A DNA stretch of 64,000 bases from Methanomassiliicoccaceae archaeon DOK (GTDB lineage Archaea > Thermoplasmatota > Thermoplasmata > Methanomassiliicoccales > Methanomethylophilaceae), in contig CP047880.1 in the NCBI GenBank assembly GCA_009911715.1, forward strand, positions 1,178,001 through 1,242,000, written 5' to 3'. A program made the translations under genes and the position numbers. The notes under the pieces were generated by a model, which was given only the letters and a program-made list of their open reading frames with translations, made no database searches and was not told where the DNA came from. Positions 8,799 to 24,510 of the stretch are shown piece after piece. The first letter of the stretch is position 1; every line of letters starts with the position of its first letter.

Positions 8799-8910
8799 AT
8801 TAATTTCCATTTCTCCGATGCTCGATTTTCAACCCATTTCGGAATCCTGTCGTCCCCACAGTGGCTGCGATGCTTATACTACACTCTTTATAGTATAGGA
8901 CGTGCATTCG

Positions 8911-8987
8911 TAATTATAAACAGATTATCGGCGGGGGGGGGCGACTCAGGTTGTTTCTCCCTCCGTCCCTCCGCCCGAGGAGGAAAA
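8911..8987 (+). promoter_or_regulatory. TATA box, G9 tract and RBS-sequestering leader of type B gene 1
   Basis: TATA box ATTATAAA lies at 8913-8920. A run of nine G occupies 8933-8941. A small hairpin CGAC/GTTG (8942-8953) follows, then C/T-rich sequence, then CCTCC (8968-8972), which can pair with the Shine-Dalgarno GGAGG (8979-8983) across a 6-nt loop. The ATG follows four bases later. The G run can alternatively pair with the C/T-rich stretch, freeing the RBS. Three further genes have the same leader. Confidence 0.6.
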
Positions 8988-11900
8988 ATGAACCACCCGG
9001 CTAAAATCACAGCAATCTTAGTTTTAGCTATTCTGATTGCCGTAACCGCTGCATCCGTTTCACCATCCAACGATGCAGCCGTCCAGACACATGATCTGGA
9101 ACCCGAAGATGGTAACGCTCTGATACAAGCGATAACAGACAACTCGTATGGCACAGGGGACACCGTCAACATCACCCTCGGAGCTGGCATCGAGTACGTT
9201 CTGACGTTCACCGAATCCCAGGGAGAGATGACGTTCAACGGGAAGAACCTGAACATAACCTCCGATGGGAGCAATCCTGCAACGATCAAGATCGAAAGCT
9301 CAGGCACTGTGAACTCAGTGATCATCCAAGTCAAGGAGGCCAACCACTCGAGCTCGAACCTCACTGTGTCCAATGTGACCTTTGCAAGCAACACTGACAC
9401 CGAAAGCGCCGAGGTTCTGCACAGGTACTTCTGGAACGTGACATTCTACGACTGCACTTTCAACAACTCCGCACTCACCCGCACCCTGGGTGGAAACGAC
9501 ACCACTACCGGCGGGGTGACCACAATCACGAATTGCAAGTTCAACGGACCCGGAAATGAAGGACACAACACGCTGAGCGAAGGGAAATTCGCCGTCACCA
9601 CGAACTCCGGTTGCCTCGAGTTCCAACGCAACGTGATAACAGGATACGACCGCGGCCTGAACGCCATCATCAACCAGAACGATGACGGTCGCTATCTCGT
9701 AGTCTCCAACAATAAATTCACTGATCTCGGGGTGACCGATTATCAGAAACCCATGGCCTTCCAGTTCGGAGGGGACCTCCAGGACATGGAGATCATCTTC
9801 AGCATAAACGAACTGGACTCCGTGAAATACGGGGTGTCGGTCCACAACAGCGTCAAATCCAGCGACAGCACGCAGCTGCTGGTTGCGATGAACACCTTCT
9901 CAAATGTCATAAATCATGTGCTGTACTCCGGCTCCGGTGAAGCCGAACCCATCGTCCCGGTTCCTGTATTGGGACTCATGAATCTAGATGCAGATAATGA
10001 TTATATCGAACTCAGCTACGGATTCGAGGATGCGTCCCAATCTTCTACGGGAATTTCCATCACCAACTACGGCCCTGAATCCCTTGATTGGTTCATGAGC
10101 GTCATTGTTCATAATCTTAAGGCATTCACTCTGAACTCGGCCACCGACCTCCTTACACTCTCGCTGATGGTGAACGCCGGCCAGACCTTCGCAGACTGCA
10201 CCCTCACCCTCGGCAGCGACATCGATCTCTCGAGAATCGATTGGATTCCCATCGGAAACCCTGTGCACCCGTTCACTGGATCGTTCTCGGGTAACGACGG
10301 CACTACAATCCACACCATAACAGGACTCACCATCGACAAGATGGAATCGCAGGGCGATGTTTACGCCGGACTGTTCGGGTACATCGTCGGAGCTCCCAAC
10401 AATAAGTTCACATCGACATCCGACGTGTATAATGATGGAAACTATTCCGAGACCGCCGTGGACCCGACCAACTACACGGCCACGGTCCAGGACCTCGTTA
10501 TCTCGAACGCCAGCATAGACACCACCGGATCCCGTGTAGGTGCACTTGCAGGATATGCTGACAACACATACATCTCCGGGGTTACCGTTACCAACGGACA
10601 TGTTTTCGGAGGCAGCACCACCGGGGGTGTGATCGGAATAGGCTACTCCGTCGTGCTGAAGGAATGTTCTACCAAGGGAACATTCTATGTGAGCTACCAA
10701 AGAGATACGGACGCGTACAACGTTGGTGGCATAGCGGGATGCATCCGTGGAAACACGGGACATCCGAGCCTGGTGACCGGATGCGTCAACGAAGCCACTG
10801 TGACCGCCAGGGCCAACATCGGAGGTCTTGGAGGGATCATCGGACACATCAACGGCTCCGTACCCGTGGTCGTGTACGGTTGCGAAAACCGCGGGTACGT
10901 GGCCTCCAATCCGATGGGAGAAATCGACAATCCCTACGACGGGTCCGTCGGTGGCATAGTCGGATTCTTCCAGGGCTCATATGGAACAACTGCAGGAGAG
11001 AACGTCATCGCAAACTCCAAGAACTACGGCAAGGTGATGACCACATCTGGATCCAAGTTGACGGGAAACCTGTCCGGTATCGTCGGTGAGTACTACTCCG
11101 GATCCATCGTGAACTGCCACAACCATGGAACCATCGAGGGAAGCGCGATCTTCGTCGGGGGCATCATGGGTCACGGTGCCATAAACGACAGGGTCGTGAT
11201 CGACGGATGCACCAACTCCGGAGAACTGACGAACTCCTCGCAGGAATACAGTGAGAACGTCTCCGGTATCGCCGTCTCCGCCACAGTGATTGACGTCGCC
11301 GAACCGGACCGCAGGGACATCCTGTACAGGAACATGACGTTCGACACCACCGAAGACCTCCTGAATGCCATGCCCAAGACCGGCATGGAGTCGGGAGTGG
11401 GCCTGAACTACAGCGGCGTGGCGTTCTCGATGGAGGATGTCGTGGTGTTGACCCCCGGGCCCTTGGACCTGCCGGACCGTGTGTTCGGGTTCACCGCCGA
11501 CACGCAGGTGGCCACCTCCATAACAATGGGATCGGAAACCACCAACACCTCTGTCGCGAAAATATTCGTTCCTGGCGTAACCGTCACGATAGACGGCGAG
11601 TATAACTCCGTCTGGCTGAACGGTGACGGGTTCGACCTGACCAACAACGGAGACATCGGCACCATCAGAGTATACGGTGGAGACGGGATCATCATCAGGA
11701 ACGAGAGTACGGTAGGGGAGGTCACAGACGCATTCTTCAATGGGTACAACAGCACCATACAATCCGGTTACTCTGGATGTGCATCGATCACGATCTACAA
11801 CGGATCGACAGATCCCAGCAGTGCGATAATGAACAACGTCACGTCCCTGTATCTGAACACCGAGCTCTACAACTACGGAACCATCGAATCCGGAGAAAAT

Positions 11901-13241
11901 CTGCTGAGGGTCGGAGTCGAATGCGATGAAACCCCTGTGGAACAGAACAACACATTCGTCGTCCACAACCACGGCGAGATGATTGGAGAGCGCACAGGAG
12001 AGCCGGATGAACAGTACAACTACATGTTCTTCATCCCCGCGGCGAAGAAGTTCACACTGATCAACTACGAAGGATCAAATCTCGTGAACAATGGAGCCTG
12101 TACAAGCAGCAGCGGTTCCGACTACTGGTTCATATACTACGGAACCGACGGACATGATTCCTCAGACGATCCATCGTCTGACGTTAAGGGAACTATGGAG
12201 TTCTACCTGGCAGACGATACCGTTCTGAAGAACAATGCCGCCTACCCAGACACAGGAAAGTTCGACACCGATTGTCTGAAGAGCCTCACTGTGGGCAAGA
12301 ACAACCCCGATGTCGACATCAAGGTGCAGGCGCTGTCCGCTGATGACGGCTCGGTCACCTTCTCGGATGGGTTCGACGACTCGGAAACCGTACCTCTGGT
12401 CAACGGAAGCCCCATCAATCCCCCAGAGTTCACCAAGGGCGGACTCAACATGGTCCCCTGGGACATCGATGCGTACGAGGATGGGGAAACATACACTGCC
12501 CAGTGGACGGTCGCCCCCTTCACACCCACGATCAAGGTGGATGTTGAGAACCCGGTTGTAGGGCAGACGGTGAACCTCACTGCCAGCTTCTTCGCGTACC
12601 CGTACCTCGCCTATGCATGCGTATGGACCGTCGGAGGAGAGATCCTTACAGGAAGCACCGTCGCTTACACTGTGAAGGACATCTCGACCGAAGTCGTCCT
12701 GAAGATCAGTGTGACAGCTGCGGACGGTTATGATTGCATCACAGAGACATACACGACCAGCGATGTGCCGTTGACACTAACAGCGACAGAGCCTTCAGTG
12801 TACGAGGTCACATTCGACGTCAACGTCGATGGTTACGACGTGGATGTCACTGATCCCGATGGTACACCCTACACCAGCGAAAACGGGACCTACATGTTGC
12901 CTGACGGCGATTACACGGCCATCTTTACCAAGTCTGGCTATGTTGACAAGACCATCGACTTCACAGTGAATGGGAAGGATGAAGTGATTCCAGTCAAGAT
13001 GGAACCAGAGGCCATAGATCCAGAACCGGGTCCCGATGAGCCCACTGATCCCGATACTCCAAGCATTGACCCTGGCTATCCGACTATAGACCCGGATGAC
13101 GACTACGTCCCTCTCCCACCGGTTGTTGTCGATGAGTCTGGATCCTCTGATGACGACACAGTGAAGATCGTTGCCTGCGCCGCCGCGGCTGTGGTAGCAG
13201 CGCTGATGGCCGCGTTCCTCATCATCAGCAGAAGGGACTGA
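8988..13241 (+). CDS. Adhesin-like giant surface protein, type B, with GLUG-type repeats
   Basis: 1,417 residues. Signal peptide at about 1-30 (hydrophobic AILVLAILIAVTAASV). The N-terminal half is parallel beta-helix-like. Residues around 480-780 carry repeated glycine motifs such as VGGIVGFFQGS and VGGIMGHGAI interleaved with cysteine-containing NC.N.G strands, resembling GLUG repeats. Near the C-terminus come an Ig/PKD-like segment and a PEGA-like segment (DGDYTAIFTKSGY). An Asp/Pro-rich linker with DDDYVPLPP follows, then a hydrophobic helix (KIVACAAAAVVAALMAAFLI) and tail SRRD. GGAGG at 8979-8983, four bases from the ATG, fixes the start. Probably an exported, anchored adhesin. The same YVPLPP-helix ending occurs in the next three genes. 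Confidence 0.87.
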   Translation: MNHPAKITAILVLAILIAVTAASVSPSNDAAVQTHDLEPEDGNALIQAITDNSYGTGDTVNITLGAGIEYVLTFTESQGEMTFNGKNLNITSDGSNPATIKIESSGTVNSVIIQVKEANHSSSNLTVSNVTFASNTDTESAEVLHRYFWNVTFYDCTFNNSALTRTLGGNDTTTGGVTTITNCKFNGPGNEGHNTLSEGKFAVTTNSGCLEFQRNVITGYDRGLNAIINQNDDGRYLVVSNNKFTDLGVTDYQKPMAFQFGGDLQDMEIIFSINELDSVKYGVSVHNSVKSSDSTQLLVAMNTFSNVINHVLYSGSGEAEPIVPVPVLGLMNLDADNDYIELSYGFEDASQSSTGISITNYGPESLDWFMSVIVHNLKAFTLNSATDLLTLSLMVNAGQTFADCTLTLGSDIDLSRIDWIPIGNPVHPFTGSFSGNDGTTIHTITGLTIDKMESQGDVYAGLFGYIVGAPNNKFTSTSDVYNDGNYSETAVDPTNYTATVQDLVISNASIDTTGSRVGALAGYADNTYISGVTVTNGHVFGGSTTGGVIGIGYSVVLKECSTKGTFYVSYQRDTDAYNVGGIAGCIRGNTGHPSLVTGCVNEATVTARANIGGLGGIIGHINGSVPVVVYGCENRGYVASNPMGEIDNPYDGSVGGIVGFFQGSYGTTAGENVIANSKNYGKVMTTSGSKLTGNLSGIVGEYYSGSIVNCHNHGTIEGSAIFVGGIMGHGAINDRVVIDGCTNSGELTNSSQEYSENVSGIAVSATVIDVAEPDRRDILYRNMTFDTTEDLLNAMPKTGMESGVGLNYSGVAFSMEDVVVLTPGPLDLPDRVFGFTADTQVATSITMGSETTNTSVAKIFVPGVTVTIDGEYNSVWLNGDGFDLTNNGDIGTIRVYGGDGIIIRNESTVGEVTDAFFNGYNSTIQSGYSGCASITIYNGSTDPSSAIMNNVTSLYLNTELYNYGTIESGENLLRVGVECDETPVEQNNTFVVHNHGEMIGERTGEPDEQYNYMFFIPAAKKFTLINYEGSNLVNNGACTSSSGSDYWFIYYGTDGHDSSDDPSSDVKGTMEFYLADDTVLKNNAAYPDTGKFDTDCLKSLTVGKNNPDVDIKVQALSADDGSVTFSDGFDDSETVPLVNGSPINPPEFTKGGLNMVPWDIDAYEDGETYTAQWTVAPFTPTIKVDVENPVVGQTVNLTASFFAYPYLAYACVWTVGGEILTGSTVAYTVKDISTEVVLKISVTAADGYDCITETYTTSDVPLTLTATEPSVYEVTFDVNVDGYDVDVTDPDGTPYTSENGTYMLPDGDYTAIFTKSGYVDKTIDFTVNGKDEVIPVKMEPEAIDPEPGPDEPTDPDTPSIDPGYPTIDPDDDYVPLPPVVVDESGSSDDDTVKIVACAAAAVVAALMAAFLIISRRD

Positions 13242-13296
13242 ACAGTAACCTAAGAAACCAATTACCCATGGCACGGGGGATGGTACCGTGCCTCAG
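13242..13296 (+). terminator. Type B 3' element, copy 1
   Basis: A conserved AACCT...AAACC stretch after the stop leads to the stem GGCACGG (13270-13276) with CCGTGCC (13286-13292), loop starting GGG. Four type B genes carry this element. Confidence 0.6.
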
Positions 13297-13340
13297 ATGA
13301 TTCTGATTTTGCTCAAGCCATGAAAAAACGGGCATAGTTT

Positions 13341-13431
13341 TAACTTATAAAATCACAATCTTCTACAAGCGATTAGTTACGGGGGGGGGGACGACACAGG
13401 TCTCTCCTCCTACCCTCCGTTTGGAGGAGAA
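13341..13431 (+). promoter_or_regulatory. TATA box, G10 tract and RBS-sequestering leader of type B gene 2
   Basis: TATA box TTATAAAA at 13345-13352; ten consecutive G at 13381-13390; small hairpin GAC/GTC (13393-13402); C/T-rich TCTCCTCC; then CCTCC (13414-13418) pairing with the RBS GGAGG (13423-13427) across a GTTT loop. ATG at 13432 after a 4-base spacer. Confidence 0.6.
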
Positions 13432-16400
13432 ATGAAAAATAAAATTCTAACAATGGCCGTTATTATAACGATGGCTGCTCTGACCATTGTAATGATTCCG
13501 TCTAATGAATCTGATGCAGACACTGGCGGAACATTCACTGTTGGTGAAAACACGTTCAATTCACTATCAGAGTCCATTGACAACCTAGGTTCTAACGATA
13601 AAATCGTGATGAATGGAAATGTGACTTTAGACTCAGTGGTTGTTGTTGACAATCAAAGTTTTACGCTGAACCTGAATGGATTCACTCTGACTGGACCCAC
13701 TGCCGAGAATAATGAAGGAACCATTCTGGACATCAAAGGTGATTCTTCAATCTACATAACTGGTAATGGGGCTCTTGTAAACCAATCCTTTGGTTCAGCA
13801 GGGACTTCTAAAAATCTCAATGACGCTAGTTGCATAATAGATGTTCGTGCCAATTCAACACTAGTCCTTGAAAACGTAAAAGTGGATGCCATGGGATACG
13901 GCGTCGGAGTATGGACTGATGGGGAACTTCAAATCAAAAACGCGAATATTATCGCTGGAACCTCAGCAGTAGCTGGAAATGGTACAAATTCTAATGCAAC
14001 CATATCCATATTCAACGGATATTTTGAATCTGAGAATTCAGCAGCAGTTTTCTTTCCAAGCTCTGGCGAACTAACAGTGACAGGCGGAGAATTTGTGGGA
14101 AAAACAGGTTTTGACTTACGTGGAGGAACATGTTCTATAGATAATTGTTCAATCAAAACCAGTGGATCGATTGACACTAATAAAGAAGAAAATGACGGCC
14201 CGGTTGCCTGGGGATTCGGAATAGTGGCGTTCAACATGCCGGGCTACGGAAACAACGATGAAAACATCTCCTTGACAATAGGTGATAATGTCACCATCAA
14301 CACTTCTGATATCTCATCTGATTTATACGTAGGTGGGTATCCCGAATTTGAGGGTGACGACAGATCATTCTCAGCTCCAGTGACATATGATCCGTCTCAT
14401 GATATGATAATCAACACACCTCAGGTGAAATTCACAGTTGATAAAGACAGCGCCTATCTTTCAGGAAACCTTAATGCCGACTTTAAAAACGGTACTCTTC
14501 AACTTAAAAGCGAGATGAGAGTTCTCGGATCCAATACTCTCGAGGTTAAAGAAGGACAGACCTTCGATCTTTCCAACTGCAGATTAGCATTTGCGTTAGG
14601 AGAGATTTATAGCAACGGCAATGTAATTGCATCACCAACTGATGCAACCACATTTATTAATTCTAACACCGGACTCTCTATTTTTTCACAATCAGGCAAT
14701 TTTGGCAATAACCATTCAGCGAAACTCACATTGGATGGAGATATTGTTCTAGAAAAAACAGTAACCCTCTCGTTTGTAGGTACAATGGACCTCAACGGGC
14801 ATATCATTTCATGTTCTGCAAACACGCCAATAGCTACCAACACTCAGACCCTGATTGATACAGGGGAGGAAAAGGGTAAGATAGAATATACGGGCAGTGC
14901 GAACAATGTTGCCGCATTGAATATTCTTGGAACTGCCATCTTGGATGGCATTTGTGTGGAATCCACTGCATATGGAATTGCAACAACATTCGATAACGCC
15001 AACGTGTCTATTTCCAACGTTGATGTGAAGGCCGTTGGACCAGCACTTGCGTCGAACGGAACATTGTCAGGAACATCAATGAAAATTGACAGCGGAAATT
15101 ACATTAGCACAGGATCGGTTGCAGTTTACATACCTAACGGGGACTTCGACCTGTCTGGTGGAACATTCACAGGTTTATCTGGACTGCAGGTTTGTGGAGG
15201 AAGCTTATCTGTTTCTGGCGATGTAGAGGTCAATGCAACAGGGGTTGAAGAAGAAAAGAAAGAGAACGACGGGCCTGTAGTGGATGGCGCTGCACTGTCT
15301 GTCATTAACCGCAATGGTGCATACCACATAGAACATATAACAGTAAACGGTGGAAAGTTCAATTCTTCGTCTGGAGTTGCAGCAAAAGCATATTCCTTGG
15401 ACGGAACCACGATTTCTGACTGGAACACTCCTGCCGAATCAACGATCACCATCATGAACGGAAACTTCCAAGGAGATGTTTCCAAAGATCTGTTGGGTGA
15501 AGGGCTGGAGATTGGTGACAATGGGGACGTCGTAGGTAAGGAGGGTGTCGTATTCGATGTGACATCGGACCAATTCCTCGACAATGCCGAATATAATGAC
15601 CGCACAGTGACATTCGAGCTCACCAGAGATTACCGCATCACGGGCAACCACATCGTCTATTTTGAGAACCTGGACGTTAAAGACTACGATTCCATCATCA
15701 TAAACGGGAACGGGCACACAATCTACGGGGAGCTTTGGTTCGACAGCACATTCCAGAGTGAGGAAAGCGCGAACTACTCAGTATCCATCCAAGGGCTGAC
15801 CCTCGACGGATCGGTGTTCGGAACCGGGAACGTATACGACGGAGAAGATGCCAACAACGGCTACGGTATAGTCATCATGAACCAGAGACCGGCAGTGGAC
15901 GACCCTCGCATCGTGGACTTCTCCATCACCGACTCCGAGATCAGGAACTACGGCTCCAAGGGGATCTACATCCATACGGTGTCCGATGTCCTCATCTCTG
16001 ACGTTCTGATCGAGAACTGCGCCTTCACACCCCATTGGCAGACATGGGGTGAGGATCCAGAATCTGACAGCCTGAAGTACTATGACAGAGGGGACTACGC
16101 AGTGGACATCGATGTCACCGGGGTCGAATGCAACAGCATCACTATAAGGGATGTCACTTTCAAGGGAACCTCCGGCTCCCTTGCCGCCCTGAAGATCGCT
16201 CAGCGCGGCGGTGCCGGTGACGACCCAAACGTCTGGGGCGACGCAACTATCTTAGGTGTGACGATGGATGGACTCGATTTCTCGGATTCCTCTGCTCCCA
16301 GGGATATCGTTCTCGGAAGCGAACCCAACATCACTGGAGACAACCAGGAAGAGCTCAGGGACTACAACTCGGCGTTCCCGATCGACCTGACTGCATATGG

Positions 16401-16845
16401 AGAGACATCTCTGTCTATCTGGGGAAGTGACAGGCACGGAGACGAGAACCTCAGTCTGGCCCTCTCCGATGGGTCCAGAGTCCGTTCAACAGGGAATACA
16501 GACGAAAACAGAGAGTCCGGAAGAATCTCGATAGAACTGATATCCGGAACCGCCCGTGTATCCGGCGTATTGGGGCCCAACATGTCCTTTACGGCCGATG
16601 AAAGCGCAGTAACCTTCGCATCGGATTTCGTGGATAGAAGCGGGGGAGGGCTCAACATCCACGAATCCGAAGCTCCTCCGTACAATCCGGGCTGGAACGA
16701 TGACGACGACTATGTTCCGCTACCCCCGGTAATCTATGAGGAACCTGAACGCGACAACACGACAGAAATCGTCGCCTGCGCCGCGGCTGCTGTGGTCGCG
16801 GCACTGATGGCAGCATTCCTGATTCTCGAGCGCAGAAGGAACTGA
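13432..16845 (+). CDS. Adhesin-like surface protein, type B, compositionally chimeric
   Basis: 1,137 residues. Signal peptide at about 1-29 (MKNKILTMAVIITMAALTIV then SNESDA). The N-terminal two thirds contains an internal duplication: residues about 120-270 and 500-640 share the order variable strand, SAVFF/VAVYIP, LTVTGGEF/FDLSGGTF, then KEENDGPV. Both halves look like beta-helix rungs. The C-terminus has DDDDYVPLPP, the hydrophobic helix AAAAVVAALMAAFLI and the tail ERRRN. The DNA is visibly AT-rich from the start to about 15,600, then switches to the GC-rich codon use of its neighbours, so the gene looks like a graft of a foreign passenger on a resident anchor. Adhesion is inferred from architecture only. 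Confidence 0.87.
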   Translation: MKNKILTMAVIITMAALTIVMIPSNESDADTGGTFTVGENTFNSLSESIDNLGSNDKIVMNGNVTLDSVVVVDNQSFTLNLNGFTLTGPTAENNEGTILDIKGDSSIYITGNGALVNQSFGSAGTSKNLNDASCIIDVRANSTLVLENVKVDAMGYGVGVWTDGELQIKNANIIAGTSAVAGNGTNSNATISIFNGYFESENSAAVFFPSSGELTVTGGEFVGKTGFDLRGGTCSIDNCSIKTSGSIDTNKEENDGPVAWGFGIVAFNMPGYGNNDENISLTIGDNVTINTSDISSDLYVGGYPEFEGDDRSFSAPVTYDPSHDMIINTPQVKFTVDKDSAYLSGNLNADFKNGTLQLKSEMRVLGSNTLEVKEGQTFDLSNCRLAFALGEIYSNGNVIASPTDATTFINSNTGLSIFSQSGNFGNNHSAKLTLDGDIVLEKTVTLSFVGTMDLNGHIISCSANTPIATNTQTLIDTGEEKGKIEYTGSANNVAALNILGTAILDGICVESTAYGIATTFDNANVSISNVDVKAVGPALASNGTLSGTSMKIDSGNYISTGSVAVYIPNGDFDLSGGTFTGLSGLQVCGGSLSVSGDVEVNATGVEEEKKENDGPVVDGAALSVINRNGAYHIEHITVNGGKFNSSSGVAAKAYSLDGTTISDWNTPAESTITIMNGNFQGDVSKDLLGEGLEIGDNGDVVGKEGVVFDVTSDQFLDNAEYNDRTVTFELTRDYRITGNHIVYFENLDVKDYDSIIINGNGHTIYGELWFDSTFQSEESANYSVSIQGLTLDGSVFGTGNVYDGEDANNGYGIVIMNQRPAVDDPRIVDFSITDSEIRNYGSKGIYIHTVSDVLISDVLIENCAFTPHWQTWGEDPESDSLKYYDRGDYAVDIDVTGVECNSITIRDVTFKGTSGSLAALKIAQRGGAGDDPNVWGDATILGVTMDGLDFSDSSAPRDIVLGSEPNITGDNQEELRDYNSAFPIDLTAYGETSLSIWGSDRHGDENLSLALSDGSRVRSTGNTDENRESGRISIELISGTARVSGVLGPNMSFTADESAVTFASDFVDRSGGGLNIHESEAPPYNPGWNDDDDYVPLPPVIYEEPERDNTTEIVACAAAAVVAALMAAFLILERRRN

Positions 16846-16900
16846 ACAGCAACCTGAGAAACCGCTTTCCCATGGCACGGGGGTTGGTACCGTGCCCATC
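16846..16900 (+). terminator. Type B 3' element, copy 2
   Basis: Stem GGCACGG (16874-16880) with CCGTGCC (16890-16896), loop GGGTTGGTA; same upstream AACCTGAGAAACC block as the other type B genes. Confidence 0.6.
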
Positions 16901-17040
16901 ATGATTCTACATCTTCGGTAAAAACCACATTTCCTCGACACATAAACCCGATGCCATCGTTAGCGATCCTATGGATACGAGAAGCACACTATGTGAATTA
17001 TATATGTTCTATATATTGAACATCACTGAACACTACATTA

Positions 17041-17143
17041 CAATTTAAGAGGATAAGAGCATATTACGTGTCGCAGATTTTCACGGATGGGGGGGGGGGC
17101 GACCCAGGTCGATCCCCCCTACGTCCCTCCGTGCGGAGGAAGC
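17041..17143 (+). promoter_or_regulatory. Promoter, G11 tract and RBS-sequestering leader of type B gene 3
   Basis: TATA-like ATTTAAGA at 17043-17050; eleven G at 17089-17099; perfect small hairpin CGAC/GTCG (17100-17111); six C (17114-17119) able to pair with the G run; CCTCC (17126-17130) pairing with the RBS GGAGG (17135-17139) across GTGC. An upstream ATG (17087) abuts the G run and is in frame with the gene only at this tract length. Confidence 0.6.
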
Positions 17144-20100
17144 ATGAACAGTATAACGAAAGCAATAGCACTGCTTGTCGTGCTTCTGACAGCAACAGCG
17201 GGAGTTGCCATGATGGCGGACTCCTCTGATGCTGCCCCAGCAGACATACAGGAACCGGTGCCCGCTTCGAATCCCGAAGCCGGGACCGCTATCGCAAAAG
17301 TGGACGGAACACCCTATACGGACTTCGAAGTCGCCGTCGACGCAGCGATATCTTCCAATAAAACGTTGACCCTACTGAACGACTACCAGATTACTAATCT
17401 GAACCTGGACGCCGAAAGCGTTACCATAGACCTCAACACAAAGATCCTATCTTTCGAGAGGATCAAGCTGATCAACGCATCGTCACTGACCTTCGAGAAC
17501 GGAACACTCAACGGACTGTACATCGGAGCGGCCAATGAGGCATCCATTGCCGTAAACACGGGATGCTCTGTGACGCTCAACGATGTGAACTACTACACCA
17601 AAGCCACGGGACTGTTCCCGAGTGGGGACGCTGCCTCCGTCACAGTCAAGAACGGATCTGTTGTCCATGCAGTCGGATTCTGCATCGGGACCAACGCCGG
17701 TTCGAGCTCCAACTACTATGTTGACATAAAAATCAGTGATTCGGGAATCTACGCGGATTCCGACTCCAGTGCCGCTGGAACAGCCGTATTCTACAACGTC
17801 CCGGGATCCCTGACGATAACCGACAGCACCGTCCAGGGATACTTCCACGGGGTCATCGTGAGAGGCGGAACGGCCGTGATATCCGGATCCACGATCACGA
17901 ACACGATGAACCTCTCCGGCTGGGAGACATACTATGATTCCGAGCCCTGGGGGACCGGGAACTCCATCAAACTCGGCGCACTGGTCCTCGGGAACAGGGA
18001 CAACGCATCCTACAACTATCCCACGGACGTCACCCTCATCGACACCGACGTCATCTCTGACGGAACATACGGCGCGAACTACTCCGCGGTGTACATGTGG
18101 GCCAATCCCGATCCCGAGAACGGTGTCAACCTCGTGTACGATTCGGCCTGCACGTTCAGCAACCTCAACTCCACGACCAACGACCTGTTCTTCTACGGAA
18201 ACAACGGAGCCAACATCACCGCCGGACTCGCGGTGGCCCAGGCCGGGGACAGGATCTACAACAGCCTCCAGGCGGCCATCGACGACGACAACGAGGAGAT
18301 CACCCTGGTCGGCGACACCAAGGAGAACGTGGTCGTAGACGGACAGACTGTGACTCTGGACCTCAACGGCAAGACGGTCACCAACGTCGACGACCACACC
18401 ATCACGGTGAAGTCCGGGGAGCTCACGGTAAAAGGCAAGGGTACAGTCCAGAACCTCACCCACCAAAAAGCCGCCCTCGCAGCATACCCCGGCACCAAGG
18501 TGACCCTCAACGGCGGAACCTTCGACAGGACCAACGAGACCGGCACCGGCCCCGACACATCCGGGAACAACTCATGGTACACCATCAAGAACCACGGTGA
18601 CATGACGATCGACGGAGCCACCGTGAGGAACGGTGGCGGGTTCTCCAGCTGCATCAACAACGGCTGGTACAGCGGCTCCGCCCAGGGCACCCCAGGCAAC
18701 AACGACCTCGCGGTCTACGCAGGCACCAACGCGAAGCTGACCATCGTCAGCGGGAAGATCGACGGCGGACTGAACGCCGTCAAGAACGACGACTACGGAG
18801 AACTCCTTGTACAGGGAGGAGAGCTCACCAACTCGGTCCAGGCGACCATCCTCAACTGGAACATCGCCACCATCGAGAAGGGTACGTTCAGCGCCACGAG
18901 CGATGCCAAAGCGGTCATCCTCAACGGGAAGATCGACGGCACCATGGACAAGGGCCAACTGACGATCTCCGATGGAACGTTCTCCGGCCCTGTCGGAATC
19001 CAGATGATGTCCGGAGGCGTCGGCATCGGAGACGTGACCATCACCGGCGGCACGTTCAACATCTCATCGGACAACATCATCGACCCCCTGACAGGCACGG
19101 AGACGAACGTCCAGGTGTCCGGGGGCTCGTTCTCGGACGACAGCGTCCTGGCATACCTCGTCGAGGGGAAGGGACTCGTCGAGAATGGAACGATGTTCGA
19201 TGTCGTGGACGTCCACACCGTCACATACACGTTCAACGACACCACTTACATAGAGAAGGTCATCAGCGGACAGACGGCCACACAGAACACGATTCCGGCT
19301 CTGCCTACGCTTCCTGAAGGATGCGAGTATGATTTCGGAGAGTGGGATAAAACGGCCCCCGTCACAGAAGACGTCAGCGTCTCGGTGAAGGCCGAGATCA
19401 CATCCCTGACGGTCGCCATCGGCACATCCACCGTTGATGGGGTTACAACACTTACTGCGACTGTGGACTCCACCGCGAGCGGCACTCCGGCGTACACATG
19501 GTCCTCCGGAGAGGCCACGGAGAGCATCACACCGTCTGTCGGCGGAACCTACGACGTCACCGTGACCCTCACCGTCACAAGCGGCGATGTCACCGTCACC
19601 GGAAAAGCGAACGCATCGGTCACCTACACACCTTCCGAAAGCGGAAGCACCACCACGACCACCACGAACCCCGACGGTTCCACCACCACTGTGGAGACCG
19701 ACTCCGACGGTTCGGTCACCGAGACGACCACCAAGACTGAGACCACGGAAACTGGCAACGAGATCACCACGGTCACCACGACCGGGAGTGATCCTTCCGG
19801 AAGCCAGACGACCAGCTCAACAGAGGTCACCATAGAGGCCGCTTCCGGAACTTCTGGAAGCGTCTCACTGCCCGAGGAGGATGTTAACTCCGTCATTGAA
19901 AGCATAGCCTCTGCCGGCACCACCACCAACACGATCTCCGTCAACATCGGAGAGAACGACACCGTCACGATGGGTTCCGCCGCGATCTCCGCCATTGCAG
20001 AGTCCAACGCGGTGCTCGAGATCTCCAATGAAAACGCGACCGTCGTCGCCGACGGCGATGTTATCGAGACCCTCTCCACAGGAGACGTCTCCATCACGGT

Positions 20101-20620
20101 GGGCTCGGCAACCCATGACAACCTGAACGAATCGCAGCAGCAGTCCGTGCCAGAGAACTCAACAATCGTCGAGCTCTCAGCCACTGTGGGAACAAGTCCC
20201 GTCCACGATCTGAACGGAACCGTGGAGGTCACCATGACCTACACACTCCCGTCCGGGATCGATGCGGACGATGTGATCGTGTTCTACGTCGACGACGACG
20301 GTGCGCTCCATCAGATGAGAACAGTGTACGCCGAAGGAATCCTGACGTTCTACACCACCCACTTCTCCTACTACTTCGTGGGAGACAGGTCCATGATTCC
20401 CTCTGTGGATCCGGAGCCCTCTCCCGGAGAGGACGACCAGCCCGTGGTCGTCCCGCCGGTGGATGACGATGACGACTACGTCCCGCTTCCGCCGATCGTC
20501 GACACCGACGGATCCGGATCATCCGGCGGAGACGACACCGTAAAGATCGTCGCCTGCGCCGCCGCGGCTGTGGTGGCAGCGCTGATGGCAGCGTTCCTCA
20601 TCATCAGCAGAAGGGATTGA
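17144..20620 (+). CDS. Adhesin-like surface protein, type B, Thr-rich stalk
   Basis: 1,158 residues from the ATG at 17144, chosen because GGAGG lies four bases upstream and a clear signal peptide follows (AIALLVVLLTATAGVAMMA, cleavage near SSDAAPA). An in-frame ATG at 17087 would add 19 residues and spoil the signal. Residues about 30-680 are beta-helix-like. A Listeria-Bacteroides-like strand motif (EGCEYDFGEWDKTAPV) comes next, then a Ser/Thr stalk (TTTTTTNPDGSTTTVETDSD), a globular region with YYFVGDRSMIP, and the DDDDYVPLPP plus transmembrane anchor. The C-terminal ~450 residues are closely related to the next gene. Expected to be anchored in the membrane with a likely glycosylated Thr stalk (inference). 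Confidence 0.87.
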   Translation: MNSITKAIALLVVLLTATAGVAMMADSSDAAPADIQEPVPASNPEAGTAIAKVDGTPYTDFEVAVDAAISSNKTLTLLNDYQITNLNLDAESVTIDLNTKILSFERIKLINASSLTFENGTLNGLYIGAANEASIAVNTGCSVTLNDVNYYTKATGLFPSGDAASVTVKNGSVVHAVGFCIGTNAGSSSNYYVDIKISDSGIYADSDSSAAGTAVFYNVPGSLTITDSTVQGYFHGVIVRGGTAVISGSTITNTMNLSGWETYYDSEPWGTGNSIKLGALVLGNRDNASYNYPTDVTLIDTDVISDGTYGANYSAVYMWANPDPENGVNLVYDSACTFSNLNSTTNDLFFYGNNGANITAGLAVAQAGDRIYNSLQAAIDDDNEEITLVGDTKENVVVDGQTVTLDLNGKTVTNVDDHTITVKSGELTVKGKGTVQNLTHQKAALAAYPGTKVTLNGGTFDRTNETGTGPDTSGNNSWYTIKNHGDMTIDGATVRNGGGFSSCINNGWYSGSAQGTPGNNDLAVYAGTNAKLTIVSGKIDGGLNAVKNDDYGELLVQGGELTNSVQATILNWNIATIEKGTFSATSDAKAVILNGKIDGTMDKGQLTISDGTFSGPVGIQMMSGGVGIGDVTITGGTFNISSDNIIDPLTGTETNVQVSGGSFSDDSVLAYLVEGKGLVENGTMFDVVDVHTVTYTFNDTTYIEKVISGQTATQNTIPALPTLPEGCEYDFGEWDKTAPVTEDVSVSVKAEITSLTVAIGTSTVDGVTTLTATVDSTASGTPAYTWSSGEATESITPSVGGTYDVTVTLTVTSGDVTVTGKANASVTYTPSESGSTTTTTTNPDGSTTTVETDSDGSVTETTTKTETTETGNEITTVTTTGSDPSGSQTTSSTEVTIEAASGTSGSVSLPEEDVNSVIESIASAGTTTNTISVNIGENDTVTMGSAAISAIAESNAVLEISNENATVVADGDVIETLSTGDVSITVGSATHDNLNESQQQSVPENSTIVELSATVGTSPVHDLNGTVEVTMTYTLPSGIDADDVIVFYVDDDGALHQMRTVYAEGILTFYTTHFSYYFVGDRSMIPSVDPEPSPGEDDQPVVVPPVDDDDDYVPLPPIVDTDGSGSSGGDDTVKIVACAAAAVVAALMAAFLIISRRD

Positions 20621-20675
20621 ACGGAAACCTGAATAACCTCTTACCCCCGGCACAGGGGTTCGTACTGTGCCATTC
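20621..20675 (+). terminator. Type B 3' element, copy 3 (compensatory pair)
   Basis: Stem GGCACAG (20649-20655) with CTGTGCC (20665-20671), loop GGGTTCGTA. Relative to the other copies one G-C pair is replaced by A-T on both sides, direct evidence for a conserved helix. Confidence 0.65.
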
Positions 20676-20689
20676 CCCTCTTCTTCAAG

Positions 20690-20792
20690 ATATACTATAA
20701 ATCATTTAGAGCATATTCCACGTCCAAAGATTTTCGCGGGGGGGGGGGACCAGACCCTGGCTCAACCCTTCGCCCTCCGACAAGGAGAAGAA
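20690..20792 (+). promoter_or_regulatory. Promoter, G11 tract and RBS-sequestering leader of type B gene 4
   Basis: TATA-like ACTATAAATC near 20692-20701; eleven G at 20738-20748; hairpin CCAG/CTGG (20750-20760), differing in sequence but in the same place as the other leaders; CTCC (20775-20778) pairing with GGAG (20784-20787). ATG at 20793. Upstream it shares CATATT, CACGT and AGATTTTC blocks with the preceding gene's leader. Confidence 0.55.
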
Positions 20793-23700
20793 ATGAAAGA
20801 GAAAATACTGACCATCGCTGCGATTTTGGCTGCGGTGGCAATGATCGTTCTGTCCGTTCCGGCATCCGAAGTCGAGGCGGACGAAGCTAATCCGTTCACA
20901 GTCGTGGACGGAACGGACTATCCTACACTCGGTGACGCGTTGACCAACGTGTCCAATGCGGGCACTATACAGTTGAACACCAACGCAACCTTCATCGCCG
21001 ATGATAAGCTGAACATAAACAAGTCAGTGACCTTGGATCTCAACGGATTCACATTGACGACATCCACGACCCTTACCGTCGCCAAAGATATGACTTTAAC
21101 AATTGAAGACAGCAGTGCCGAAGGCACGGGTCTGTTCTCCACGTCGAAGCAGTACGCTATCGACGTCTACGGAACCTTGAAATTGGAGTCCGGCAACATG
21201 GAAAGCTCCGCTGATACCATCATCAGGGTATATGGAAGCGGTGCATTCGAGATGACCGGAGGAACCATAGAAGGTTCCAAGGGACAGGGAGTTTTCGTGA
21301 TGGGCTCAGCCACCATAACTGCCGGAACCATAGGTGCAACTGAAACGGCAAACTCCTCTTACGCCGCCCTCAAGCTTTCCACCAATGGCAGTGCAACTAT
21401 CGGTACGGCCGACACATCCCCATATCTGTACTCTCTGAATCCCAACGGACTTGATGTCATGATGGTCTCGGGTATCGTTGGAAAGGTCAACGGAGACTTC
21501 GGCGCTGACAGCCAGTTCAACGGCGGCAAATTCGAGAGCTCTCCTGAGAATTATCTCCCCAGTAAATACGCCGCCCAGTCGGACAGTTCCGGTTATTGGA
21601 TCGTAGTTCCATTCACCGATGACCACGCCAAAGCCTCAATCACGAAATCCGACGGAACCGTCAATCTGTACCCCACCCTCATTAGCGCCGGAAAGGCCAT
21701 GGAGAGCGGCGACACTCTGACACTGCTTGAGGATTACAAAGGAGACAGAGTGGTCACCGTCAACATCTACTACGGTACCATCGACCTCAACGGGTGTGAT
21801 GTTACCTGCACGAAGACTGGGACATCCGGTTACGGAATCAACATAGCAAAGGGAACCGGCACCTATGATTCCTCGAACACGAACACCATAGTCATCACAT
21901 CCGATACAGAATCCACCATCGAGGCAAGCTACCCCGTATCGATCAGCAGCGGGAACAGCAAAAACTCTGTCTACATAAAGGTCGAAGGCAGTGTCACACT
22001 GGAATCCACAGAAGGAAGAGACCTAATCAAGCTGGGTTCTGGCTCCTCTGCCCTGTTCACAGAGAACATCAGAGACTGCTTCGTCAACGGGGGATTCGTC
22101 GCAACCGTAAATGATGTGGAGTACGTCTACGGCACAGCCTCAGCCGCGCTCAGAAACAGCGACGACGGCTATGCTAAGATGCTGAACAACTACACGGGCA
22201 ACATCGTACTCGATTCTCCCAGAACCTACACTCTCGATCTTGACGGCTACACCGTCACATACAACACCACCATCGACCCTGACAATCTACAGGCCGCCGT
22301 CACAATCTACGGCGAGACGACACTCACAATAAAGAACGGGAAGATTGAGACCAACGTTTCTGGAATCGCTCCAGGGCTGGTACACAGCGGTGGCACCATC
22401 GAGAACAACGTGTCGCTGACTCTGGACAACGTCCAGCTGACCGCGGACAACATGTATGCAATATACAGCAACGGAACCTGCGAGAACATCCAGGTCAAGG
22501 TCATCAACGGCTCAAGTGTGGTCTGCACATCGTCCACAGGCGTTGGAATCTACTTCCCTGCAGAAGGCTCCCTGACCATCACAGATTCCACAGTCAAGGG
22601 AGGAACCGGAATCGAAGTCCGCAAGGGCTCCCTGGAGATATCCGGAGATAAGACCGTCATCGAGGCCACCGCCTCGAAATATTCCGTACACGAAACCCCT
22701 GACGGGGGAGGAAGCACAGTCCTCGGTGCTGCGGTAGCGATCTCCCCGTACAGCGGAATCGATTCGATGAGCGTCGACATCTCCGGTGGAACCTTCACCG
22801 GCGCGGTGGCGTTCGCACAGGCACATGCCGATGAGGAAACCGTCATGCCCACTTTCGACTTCTCCATCAGCGGAGGAAGTTTCACATCCACCGGGAAGGA
22901 CGTGAACAGCGATACATACCCCGCCATAGTAACCGAGAAGGGTGAGGTCACTGGAGAATTCATCTCCGGGGGCTCGTTCTCGGACGAAAGCGTCCTGGCA
23001 TACCTCGTCGAGGGGAAGGGACTCATCGAGAAAGGAACGATGTTCGATGTCACGAACATGTATACGATCACATACACGTTCAACGAAAAGGAGTACACGG
23101 AGACTGTCCCTGAAGGCTTTGCCCCCAGCACTGATGTGCTCCCCGAGCTCCCGGCAGGTTGCGTGTACGACTTCGGGACATGGGACAAAACCGCCGCCGT
23201 CACAGAAGACACCAGCGTCACCGTGACGGCCGAGATTACCGAACTGTCCGTGACGATATCCGTTTCGGTTGAGGACGGCACCACTTCACTCAGGGCGATT
23301 GTCGAGTCCTCTGCGAGCGGCGAGACGACCTATGCCTGGAGCAACGACGAAGACAAGGAAACCATCACCGTTACGGAGAGCGGAGAGTATACCGTCACAG
23401 TCACTCTCACAACCACTTCTGGAGAAATCTCGGTCTCCGGCATTGCGACTGCGAAAACGACATACACCGCTACCGAGAACGGAGGTTCCAGCACGACCAC
23501 TGAGAACTCCGACGGGTCCAAGACGGAGACCGTCGTCGAAGAGGACGGATCCATGTCAGAGACCACCGAGAAGAGCGAGACCACAACATCCGGCAATACC
23601 GTTACGACGGTCATCACCACCGGGAAGGACTCCTCCGGAAAAGAGATCGAAAGCACCGCATCCGCCACAATCGATGCGACTCGGTCTCAGACTGGAGATA

Positions 23701-24452
23701 TCGTTGATATCCCTGTAGGAGACGTCACCGTAGCGGTCGAAAGCATCAAATCTGCTAACGACAAGACCGTCTCGATAAGCATCGGTAACAACGACAAGGT
23801 AACTATCGCCCCCGAAGCGATGGAAGCCATCTCCTCATCCGAAGCGAAACTGGAGATCTCCAACGATACGGCGAAGATTGTGGCGGACAAGACCGTCGCA
23901 AACACGCTCGCCTCTGACCAGAGTGTCTCCATATCCGTGAGTTCCGCTGAACACGCCGACCTGAATGACACTCAGCAGCAGTCCGTTCCCGAGAATTCCA
24001 CGATCATCGAGCTTTCAGCCACTGTAGGATCTGACCCGATCCACGAACTGGGAGGAACGGTGGAGGTCCACATGAAATACAGCCTCCCCGAAGGGATCGA
24101 TGCGGACGATGTGATCGTGTTCTACGTCGATGATGAGGGTGTGCTGCATGATATGGTGACCAAGTTCGCTGACAACATCATCACGTTCTTCACGAACCAC
24201 TTCTCCTACTACTTCGTGGGAGACAGGTCGATGATCGTGCCAGAGGATCCAGAGCCGTCTCCGGGTGAGGATGACACCCCTGTAGTCGTTCCACCCGTTG
24301 ATGATGAAGATGACTACGTCCCACTCCCCCCGGCCATCGTCGAAGAACCGGGATCGTCGGATGATGACACCGTGAAGATCGTCGCCTGCGCCGCCGCGGC
24401 TGTGGTAGCAGCGCTGATGGCCGCGTTCCTTATCATAAGCAGAAGGGACTGA
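20793..24452 (+). CDS. Adhesin-like surface protein, type B, paralogue of preceding gene
   Basis: 1,219 residues from the ATG at 20793. The start is supported by AAGGAG just upstream and a signal peptide (KILTIAAILAAVAMIVLSV, then ASEVEA). The N-terminal ~700 residues are unrelated in detail to the preceding gene but also beta-helix-like. From the GGSFSDESVLAYLVEGKGL motif to the end the two proteins align throughout: Thr/Ser stalk, YYFVGDRSMI, DDYVPLPP and anchor. At the junction (about 22,966-23,050) the DNA is nearly identical to 19,116-19,200, much closer than the downstream parts, suggesting gene conversion at that point. Function as a surface adhesin is inferred. Confidence 0.87.
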   Translation: MKEKILTIAAILAAVAMIVLSVPASEVEADEANPFTVVDGTDYPTLGDALTNVSNAGTIQLNTNATFIADDKLNINKSVTLDLNGFTLTTSTTLTVAKDMTLTIEDSSAEGTGLFSTSKQYAIDVYGTLKLESGNMESSADTIIRVYGSGAFEMTGGTIEGSKGQGVFVMGSATITAGTIGATETANSSYAALKLSTNGSATIGTADTSPYLYSLNPNGLDVMMVSGIVGKVNGDFGADSQFNGGKFESSPENYLPSKYAAQSDSSGYWIVVPFTDDHAKASITKSDGTVNLYPTLISAGKAMESGDTLTLLEDYKGDRVVTVNIYYGTIDLNGCDVTCTKTGTSGYGINIAKGTGTYDSSNTNTIVITSDTESTIEASYPVSISSGNSKNSVYIKVEGSVTLESTEGRDLIKLGSGSSALFTENIRDCFVNGGFVATVNDVEYVYGTASAALRNSDDGYAKMLNNYTGNIVLDSPRTYTLDLDGYTVTYNTTIDPDNLQAAVTIYGETTLTIKNGKIETNVSGIAPGLVHSGGTIENNVSLTLDNVQLTADNMYAIYSNGTCENIQVKVINGSSVVCTSSTGVGIYFPAEGSLTITDSTVKGGTGIEVRKGSLEISGDKTVIEATASKYSVHETPDGGGSTVLGAAVAISPYSGIDSMSVDISGGTFTGAVAFAQAHADEETVMPTFDFSISGGSFTSTGKDVNSDTYPAIVTEKGEVTGEFISGGSFSDESVLAYLVEGKGLIEKGTMFDVTNMYTITYTFNEKEYTETVPEGFAPSTDVLPELPAGCVYDFGTWDKTAAVTEDTSVTVTAEITELSVTISVSVEDGTTSLRAIVESSASGETTYAWSNDEDKETITVTESGEYTVTVTLTTTSGEISVSGIATAKTTYTATENGGSSTTTENSDGSKTETVVEEDGSMSETTEKSETTTSGNTVTTVITTGKDSSGKEIESTASATIDATRSQTGDIVDIPVGDVTVAVESIKSANDKTVSISIGNNDKVTIAPEAMEAISSSEAKLEISNDTAKIVADKTVANTLASDQSVSISVSSAEHADLNDTQQQSVPENSTIIELSATVGSDPIHELGGTVEVHMKYSLPEGIDADDVIVFYVDDEGVLHDMVTKFADNIITFFTNHFSYYFVGDRSMIVPEDPEPSPGEDDTPVVVPPVDDEDDYVPLPPAIVEEPGSSDDDTVKIVACAAAAVVAALMAAFLIISRRD

Positions 24453-24510
24453 ACAGAAACCTGAGAAACCGCTTACCCCTGGCACGGGGGTCAAACCGTG
24501 CCTTTCTCAG
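24453..24510 (+). terminator. Type B 3' element, copy 4
   Basis: Stem GGCACGG (24481-24487) with CCGTGCC (24496-24502), loop GGGTCAAA, followed by TTTCTC. Ends the adhesin island. Confidence 0.6.

Follow-up and report, generated by a model that had tools for sequence, protein, structure and literature searches.

A candidate RNA switch that may read G-tract length upstream of surface-protein genes in a methanogenic archaeon

Four genes for large surface proteins of Methanomassiliicoccaceae archaeon DOK are each preceded by a leader in which a tract of 9 to 11 G is followed by two pyrimidine stretches and a Shine-Dalgarno (SD) sequence. They lie in the window, a stretch of 64,000 nucleotides (contig CP047880.1, positions 1,178,001 to 1,242,000) that is part of a closed 1.889 Mb genome (G000) in which archaeal 16S rRNA, methyl-coenzyme M reductase alpha and pyrrolysyl-tRNA synthetase are present. 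Our favoured reading, to which we give a probability of about 0.5 on the basis of modelled folds, is that the leader may be a cis-acting switch that would gauge how long its own G tract is and set the translation of a phase-variable, adhesin-like surface protein. The leader itself is a real, recurring element before signal-peptide surface proteins, with 28 accepted copies in 6 of 102 family genomes, and its structure is very probably real and selected.

Under the proposed mechanism, transcription would begin just 5' of a hairpin (H1), and the tract would pair with a pyrimidine 'ruler' (CU1), one conserved pair closing the base of this helix. With a tract inside the usable length of the ruler (about 11), a second pyrimidine stretch (CU2) would be free to pair with the SD, and translation would be off. 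Extra G residues would count only once the helix shifts to a register that gives CU2 to the 5' part of the tract and skips the purine separating the two stretches; at some 12 to 14 G this register would win in the cell and free the SD, so that longer would mean on. Slipped-strand replication in a population would alter tract length and give heritable on and off states, independent for each gene, that is, phase variation of the surface repertoire. If true, the leaders would be cis-acting, non-coding readers of a simple-sequence repeat, and repeat-based phase variation would extend to a methanogenic archaeon, which would vary its surface as bacterial pathogens do, with RNA structure as the reader rather than reading frame or promoter spacing, under a quantitative rule in which ruler length sets the threshold. 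The broader version, a self-contained RNA ruler that gauges its tract against internal pyrimidines, turns a change of one to three bases into on or off translation and operates in parallel across an archaeal surface-protein family, a mirrored C-tract form included, seems to us tentative, at somewhat less than even odds.

Anatomy and recurrence of the leader

From 5' to 3' the leader comprises H1, a closing base, the G tract, a loop, CU1 (6–12 pyrimidines), a purine, CU2 (CCTCC), a loop of 3–9 nucleotides, the SD and the ATG. The purine separator is a single base in 26 of the 28 copies, the exceptions being acg in w3 and gg in g41_2 (w1 to w4 are the window leaders 1 to 4, and the others are named by genome as g0_, g14_, g15_, g20_, g41_ and g121_). 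Because the 3' end of the 16S rRNA reads GGATCACCTCCT, GGAGG is a true SD and the CCTCC of the leader is identical to the anti-SD core.

The copies, found by pattern searches and a covariance model, are distributed over G000 (six), G014 (nine), G015 (four), G020 (five), G041 (three) and G121 (one, in a second genus); among the 31 genomes of the genus, 26 yielded no leader, and several of those 26 are incomplete. The covariance model (R1) was trained on 24 leaders, namely the G121 copy together with 23 of the 24 found first, with g20_4 excluded as a near-duplicate of g20_3. It gave 33 matches in the family genomes, of which 28 were kept and five (G041:C5, G097, G044, G060 and G103) were rejected by eye; g14_9, g41_2 and g41_3 (G014 and G041) were recovered without being in the training set, and a run over 280 kb of collected loci returned precisely the 28 leaders. 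A pattern search of the order (147 genomes) found the leader solely in G000, G014, G015 and G020, plus the one G121 copy. Order-wide pattern matches in G079, G093, G102, G043 and G015:C61 were rejected by eye, and the sequence around the G tracts at G042:C1 and G015:C61 is unrelated to the leader. For other lineages, 13 of at least 80 pattern-matching loci, mainly of archaeal or gut origin, were inspected; they resemble chance matches and contain no such leader. The curated covariance models of Rfam gave no match in the window at gathering score.

All 28 leader genes start with a signal-peptide-like hydrophobic stretch, and 26 of the proteins carry the C-terminal anchor DDTVKIVACAAAAVVAALMAAFLIISRRD or a related form. 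Of the two genes with no visible anchor end, one runs beyond the end of the sequenced stretch examined and the other, g15_4 (G015 C72, locus L206 7440-3527, minus strand), is frameshifted after 94 amino acids, with the remaining 1237-codon frame, anchor included, still open. An anchor profile gave six matches at E < 1e-18 in G000, all of them the six leader genes; in G020 the matches, five of five, were likewise leader genes, and in G014 leader genes account for 9 of the 15 strong anchor genes. Pfam domains (BspA leucine-rich repeats, beta-helix, PEGA and GLUG) were detected in three of seven relatives tested, and the window's six large proteins gave no Pfam match.

The tracts are conspicuous in their genome. 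On both strands of the window there is no run of seven or more G besides the four leader tracts, and six of the 14 runs of at least eight G in the whole of G000 are leader tracts, the two further leaders forming a divergent pair (1167515, minus strand, G13; 1167789, plus strand, G10). A 400 kb sample of the genome, read on both strands, holds 707 runs of G5, 78 of G6, two of G7, one of G8, none of G9 or G10, and one each of G11 and G12; the leader tracts stand apart because runs of 7–10 G are nearly absent (3 in 400 kb). What marks a contingency locus, a long homopolymer tract that is otherwise rare in the genome and lies at a surface-protein gene, is thus found here.

Pairing within the leader and the predicted transcript start

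The original prediction, made for the four window leaders, had CCTCC or CTCC pairing with the SD, and the four hairpins are indeed there (8968-8983, CCTCC-GCCCGA-GGAGG; 13414-13427, CCTCC-GTTT-GGAGG; 17126-17139, CCTCC-GTGC-GGAGG; 20775-20787, CTCC-GACAA-GGAG), as is a run of six C at 17114-17119. Complementarity to the SD is Watson-Crick in 25 of the 28 leaders and is present in all 28 if G-U pairs are allowed, against 7.3 ± 2.3 (maximum 14) and 17.8 ± 2.3 (maximum 24), respectively, in 500 shuffles of the leader bases. A scan of 484 kb of G000, made up of the window, locus L198 and 20 sampled stretches, captured four leader starts, all with a Watson-Crick SD hairpin of loop 3–9; of the 299 other SD-led mechanical starts, 16 have one. 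The stem persists when the SD shifts (CCCTC/GAGGG in g0_5 and g41_2) and when the loop changes length. An SD-sequestering hairpin 3' of each tract is supported, as are, in predicted folds, a competing pairing of tract and pyrimidines and tract length as the tuning variable, and the outline of the original prediction was right; one key step, how the ribosome-binding site is freed, was wrong. A helix between the tract and the neighbouring C/T run, six C included, had been held to release it, but that run (CU1) is distinct from the anti-SD arm (CU2), normally with one purine between them, so that CU1 pairing does not free the site, and the predicted ground state holds both helices. The small hairpin proposed between tract and C/T run (CGAC/GTTG, CGAC/GTCG, CCAG/CTGG) occurs in three of the four window leaders, is absent from the one with its tract at 13381, and by eye is not constant in relatives.

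The base before the tract and the purine after CU1 form the closing pair in 27 of 28 leaders (C-G in 23, T-A in w3, g15_4 and g41_3 from three genomes, T-G in one, and a mismatch in w2), compared with a mean of 24.6 in 20,000 shuffles (P = 0.0046). The next pair outward forms in 22 of 28 and carries no signal (P 0.74). These exchanges bear on control in trans, in which the tract would be read by an RNA-binding protein or by a small RNA rich in C and U, and the cis pyrimidines would be secondary. RepG offers a precedent, targeting a G repeat in a 5' untranslated region (UTR) with a length-dependent outcome over a strikingly similar range (PMC8295292, in the part available to us). In the present leaders, however, a complementary CU1 of their own adjoins the tract in 28 of 28 cases and the closing pair is compensated, neither of which a trans partner needs, and we regard control in trans as unlikely.

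A further explanation makes the tract a recombination or G-quadruplex element by which adhesin genes are shuffled and the SD hairpin an ordinary stem that damps translation, which would fit the fact that leader and C-terminal anchor are common while domain content differs. It assigns no role to the ruler, the purine separator or the closing pair, and the leader sequences differ yet keep their pairing; this explanation appears improbable.

Upstream of the tract, the best dyad ending 0–4 nucleotides before it (H1) scores 9.76 on average, against 5.19 ± 0.75 (maximum 7.33) in 300 shuffles and averages of 3.4–7.8 at all other positions out to 94 nucleotides. This position-fixed test is the evidence for H1; an earlier, looser test was significant at -26..0 (p 2e-4) and also at -78..-52 (p 0.005). 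The arms vary widely (GTGCAA/TTGCAC, TACACT/AGTGTA, ATAGTC/GACTAT, GACAC/GTGTC and ATGTC/GACAT), and because they differ between leaders H1 fits RNA pairing rather than the site of a single protein. It is weak in the window, where w3 carries a dyad of four pairs around a long loop and w1, w2 and w4 have little.

A scan with a TATA matrix, weak evidence in itself, placed the best TATA-like element 37–56 nucleotides upstream of the tract in 27 of the 28 leaders and 32 nucleotides upstream in one, and since these elements lie upstream, so would the start of transcription. H1 begins 28–34 nucleotides after the start of the best TATA-like element in 19 of the 27 dyad-bearing leaders, with a median of 29 nucleotides in the 19 leaders with an H1 score of at least 9 (Spearman 0.57, P 0.012). 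This spacing suggests that H1 lies at or near the 5' end and that the G tract is transcribed, transcription probably starting just 5' of H1.

The predicted start also bears on control at the DNA level, in which the tract would act by altering the spacing of the promoter or the binding of a protein, the pairings in the RNA being by-products of a conserved leader. Promoter-adjacent tracts control phase variation in many bacteria, SabA reportedly varies in phase through a promoter tract, and in the same genus a C10 or C12 tract abuts the TATA-like element before an ABC-transporter gene. For the leaders, by contrast, transcription is predicted to start before the tract and H1 lies near the predicted 5' end, and the complementarity to the SD would be left unexplained; we doubt that DNA-level control is the answer here.

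Computed response to tract length

When the leaders were folded in silico with ViennaRNA at 37 °C over a range of tract lengths, opening the SD cost on average (in kcal/mol) 7.4 at G8, 7.0 at G9, 6.6 at G10, 5.9 at G11, 4.1 at G12, 3.0 at G13, 2.5 at G14 and 2.0 at G18, the curve being almost flat on either side of G10–G14. The shape of the curve is unchanged at 39 °C and gentler with the Andronescu parameters (the Langdon numbers are identical, and the two count as one alternative set). Shuffling everything upstream of CU2 leaves a smooth slope from 4.4 (G10) to 3.4 (G14) with no step, and masking CU1 keeps the cost low throughout (3.0 at G10, 2.3 at G14). Between G10 and G14 the cost drops by 4.07, versus 1.16 in shuffles, the maximum among 60 shuffled sets being 2.11. 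Over G10–G14 the probability that CU2 pairs with the tract rises through 0.01, 0.07, 0.23, 0.50 and 0.64, and that of CU2 pairing with the SD falls from 0.60 to 0.21. In the folds predicted for six leaders at G8, G11 and G14, the G residues pair with CU1 up to ruler length; the step arises because any G beyond that length is of use only if the helix shifts so that the 5' part of the tract takes CU2. The model predicts that a tract of up to about 11 G would leave the SD hairpin closed and that about 12–14 G would capture CU2 and free the SD. A lasting step at 11–14 G appears in 21 of the 28 leaders.

The observed tract lengths sit just under the predicted step, at 9–11 G in 24 of 28 leaders (G6 in one, G9 in two, G10 in five, G11 in 17, G12 in two and G13 in one); these lengths were read from assemblies, which are unreliable in homopolymers, and this is the first of several points that weigh against the switch. 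Other tracts in these genomes likewise measure about 9–13, so that a length of 11 alone is not leader-specific. The step is missing from w2, w3, g20_5 and g14_9 and falls at 17 in w1, 16 in g20_3 and 8 in g41_2; with w2 and w3 lacking it and w1 late, only w4 is clean among the four window leaders, and the results for w1 and w2 vary with the amount of coding sequence folded. Covariation among homologous leaders, which the original prediction had named as a check, does not appear in the columns of the two main helices, where paired cells (89.0% versus 88.6%) do not exceed shuffles and a two-sided change is seen in two cells. The case for the switch has a genuine gap here, although a lack of column covariation can be expected, because one side is pure G and the other an SD that is misaligned where loops differ. 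Covariation is present in the closing pair, in the register shifts of the SD stem and in H1, which had previously gone unnoticed.

At their assembled lengths most leaders are predicted to be closed, the most open being g14_4 (1.6), w3 (2.0), g121_1 (2.2), g0_6 (2.9) and g20_4 (3.0). The paralogues g20_3 (G11) and g20_4 (G12) differ in tract while their leaders are near-identical; with one genome per species, tract lengths are comparable among paralogues only.

Parts of this arrangement have counterparts in bacteria. In pyrG of Bacillus subtilis, reiterative transcription under low CTP adds a 5' run of G that pairs with a C/U stretch and blocks a competing hairpin; the likeness lies in a G run at the 5' end whose C/U pairing competes with a hairpin, and the difference in that pyrG controls termination, not the SD. 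The closest system is RepG and tlpB (hp0102) of Helicobacter pylori, with a variable G repeat in the 5' UTR whose length sets post-transcriptional output through C/U-rich pairing, repression being described for 7–12 G and activation from 14 G upwards (PMC8295292). There, as far as the accessible part of that report goes, the C/U partner is a separate small RNA, whereas here the leader itself holds it, in cis, along with another C/U arm, which masks the SD; the two systems also differ in domain of life, genes and scale, the present one being a family of paralogous leaders. The nearest repeat-driven leader switch is that of the pil1 pilus of Streptococcus gallolyticus, where a change of repeat length in the leader acts, by way of alternative RNA folds, as the switch of a surface structure; according to the available part of the paper, it works through the frame of a leader peptide, the ribosome and a transcription terminator, with GCAGA repeats rather than a tract within a helix (PMC3894217). 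A homopolymer survey of 99 genomes, 18 of them archaeal, concerns coding genes and mainly poly-A and poly-T in its accessible part (PMC2831843), and a 2025 review of phase variation, in the portion available, defers archaeal distribution to future work (PMC11868660). In open-licence, full-text literature we found no paper on phase variation in Methanomassiliicoccales, which is weak evidence of novelty, and homopolymeric phase variation in archaeal methanogens gave a single paper, on long-read sequencing methods.

Other tracts of the anchor family and the window leaders

Two anchor genes of G014 that have no leader carry tracts of G11 and G9 at signal-peptide codons (C8, locus L203 6824-6834 and 9106-9114). 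At their assembled lengths these are out of frame, and other tract lengths join the frames, which makes both genes candidates for classical coding phase variation. They resemble the intragenic homopolymer phase variation of surface genes in Neisseria and Campylobacter; the 28 leaders differ in that their tract precedes the start codon and is not part of the expected frame. The strongest indirect hint that tract length matters is that this family has tracts in its codons as well as in its leaders. The same coding tracts bear on slippage by RNA polymerase, by which mRNAs of mixed tract length in each cell would adopt the same fold and give graded expression with no change in DNA; reiterative transcription at pyrG offers a comparison. 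Tracts of 9–13 G inside the predicted transcript, close to the predicted switching length, would suit it, but switching at the level of DNA accounts at least equally well for the intragenic out-of-frame tracts of this protein family, and polymerase slippage seems quite unlikely.

One leader of the family is mirrored (G014 C1, locus L200, minus strand, about 10600-10720): a G-rich ruler, GGGGGAGGGG, is followed by a loop, a C13 tract and the SD GAGGGAG, before a gene for an anchor-family protein of 748 amino acids. In this single case the logic is reversed: opening is computed to cost about 2.3 at C10 and 5.7 at C18.

The four window leaders and their genes lie on the plus strand. In w1, the best TATA-like element by the matrix scan, TTTATAGT (8887-8894, weak evidence), precedes a weak putative H1 dyad, GTAATT-ataaaca-GATTAT (8910-8928), the G9 tract (8933-8941) with the closing bases GC before it, the CU1 ruler TTTCTCCCTCC (8954-8964), CU2, TCCCTCC (8966-8972, with the anti-SD arm 8968-8972 inside), and the SD GGAGG (8979-8983); surface protein 1 (8988-13241) has 1417 amino acids, a signal peptide and the C-terminal anchor. 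In w2, the scan gave the TATA-like CTTATAAA (13344-13351); H1 is weak, and the C before the G10 tract (13381-13390) stands opposite A, the only unpaired closing pair among the 28. CU1, TCTCTCCTCCT (13401-13411), CU2, CCCTCC (13413-13418, anti-SD arm 13414-13418), and the SD GGAGG (13423-13427) lead to surface protein 2 (13432-16845, 1137 amino acids), with the same anchor, as in surface proteins 3 and 4.

The H1 dyad of w3, CGTG-(11)-CACG (17067-17085), has a loop exceeding that of most relatives; the T that closes its G11 tract (17089-17099) stands opposite A, a compensated pair. CU1, TCCCCCCT (17113-17120), CU2, TCCCTCC (17124-17130, anti-SD arm 17126-17130), the SD GGAGG (17135-17139) and surface protein 3 (17144-20620, 1158 amino acids) follow. 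For w4, the scan gave the TATA-like ACTATAAA (20694-20701); H1 is weak or absent, and the closing bases GC precede the G11 tract (20738-20748). After a short CU1, CCCTTC (20766-20771), come CU2, CCCTCC (20773-20778, anti-SD arm 20775-20778), the SD GGAG (20784-20787) and surface protein 4 (20793-24452, 1219 amino acids). Terminator-like inverted repeats (GGCACGG...CCGTGCC) lie right after surface-gene stop codons at 13270-13292, 16874-16896 and 24481-24502.

Further tracts occur elsewhere in these genomes. The C10 tract (L220, G000 C1:1566478) and the C12 tract (L326, G015 C52:2567) abut the TATA-like element on its upstream side, and the gene that follows is the same ABC-transporter-like gene (MDALVLNEVRKSYGNREAVHG...), the tract length differing between the two species. 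G9 and G11 tracts of G000 lie near apparent signal-peptide coding regions of other proteins (L213 and L215; C1:119884 and 774904), and a run of 23 G in G041 (L298 11717-11739, C1:73715) is apparently within a coding frame.

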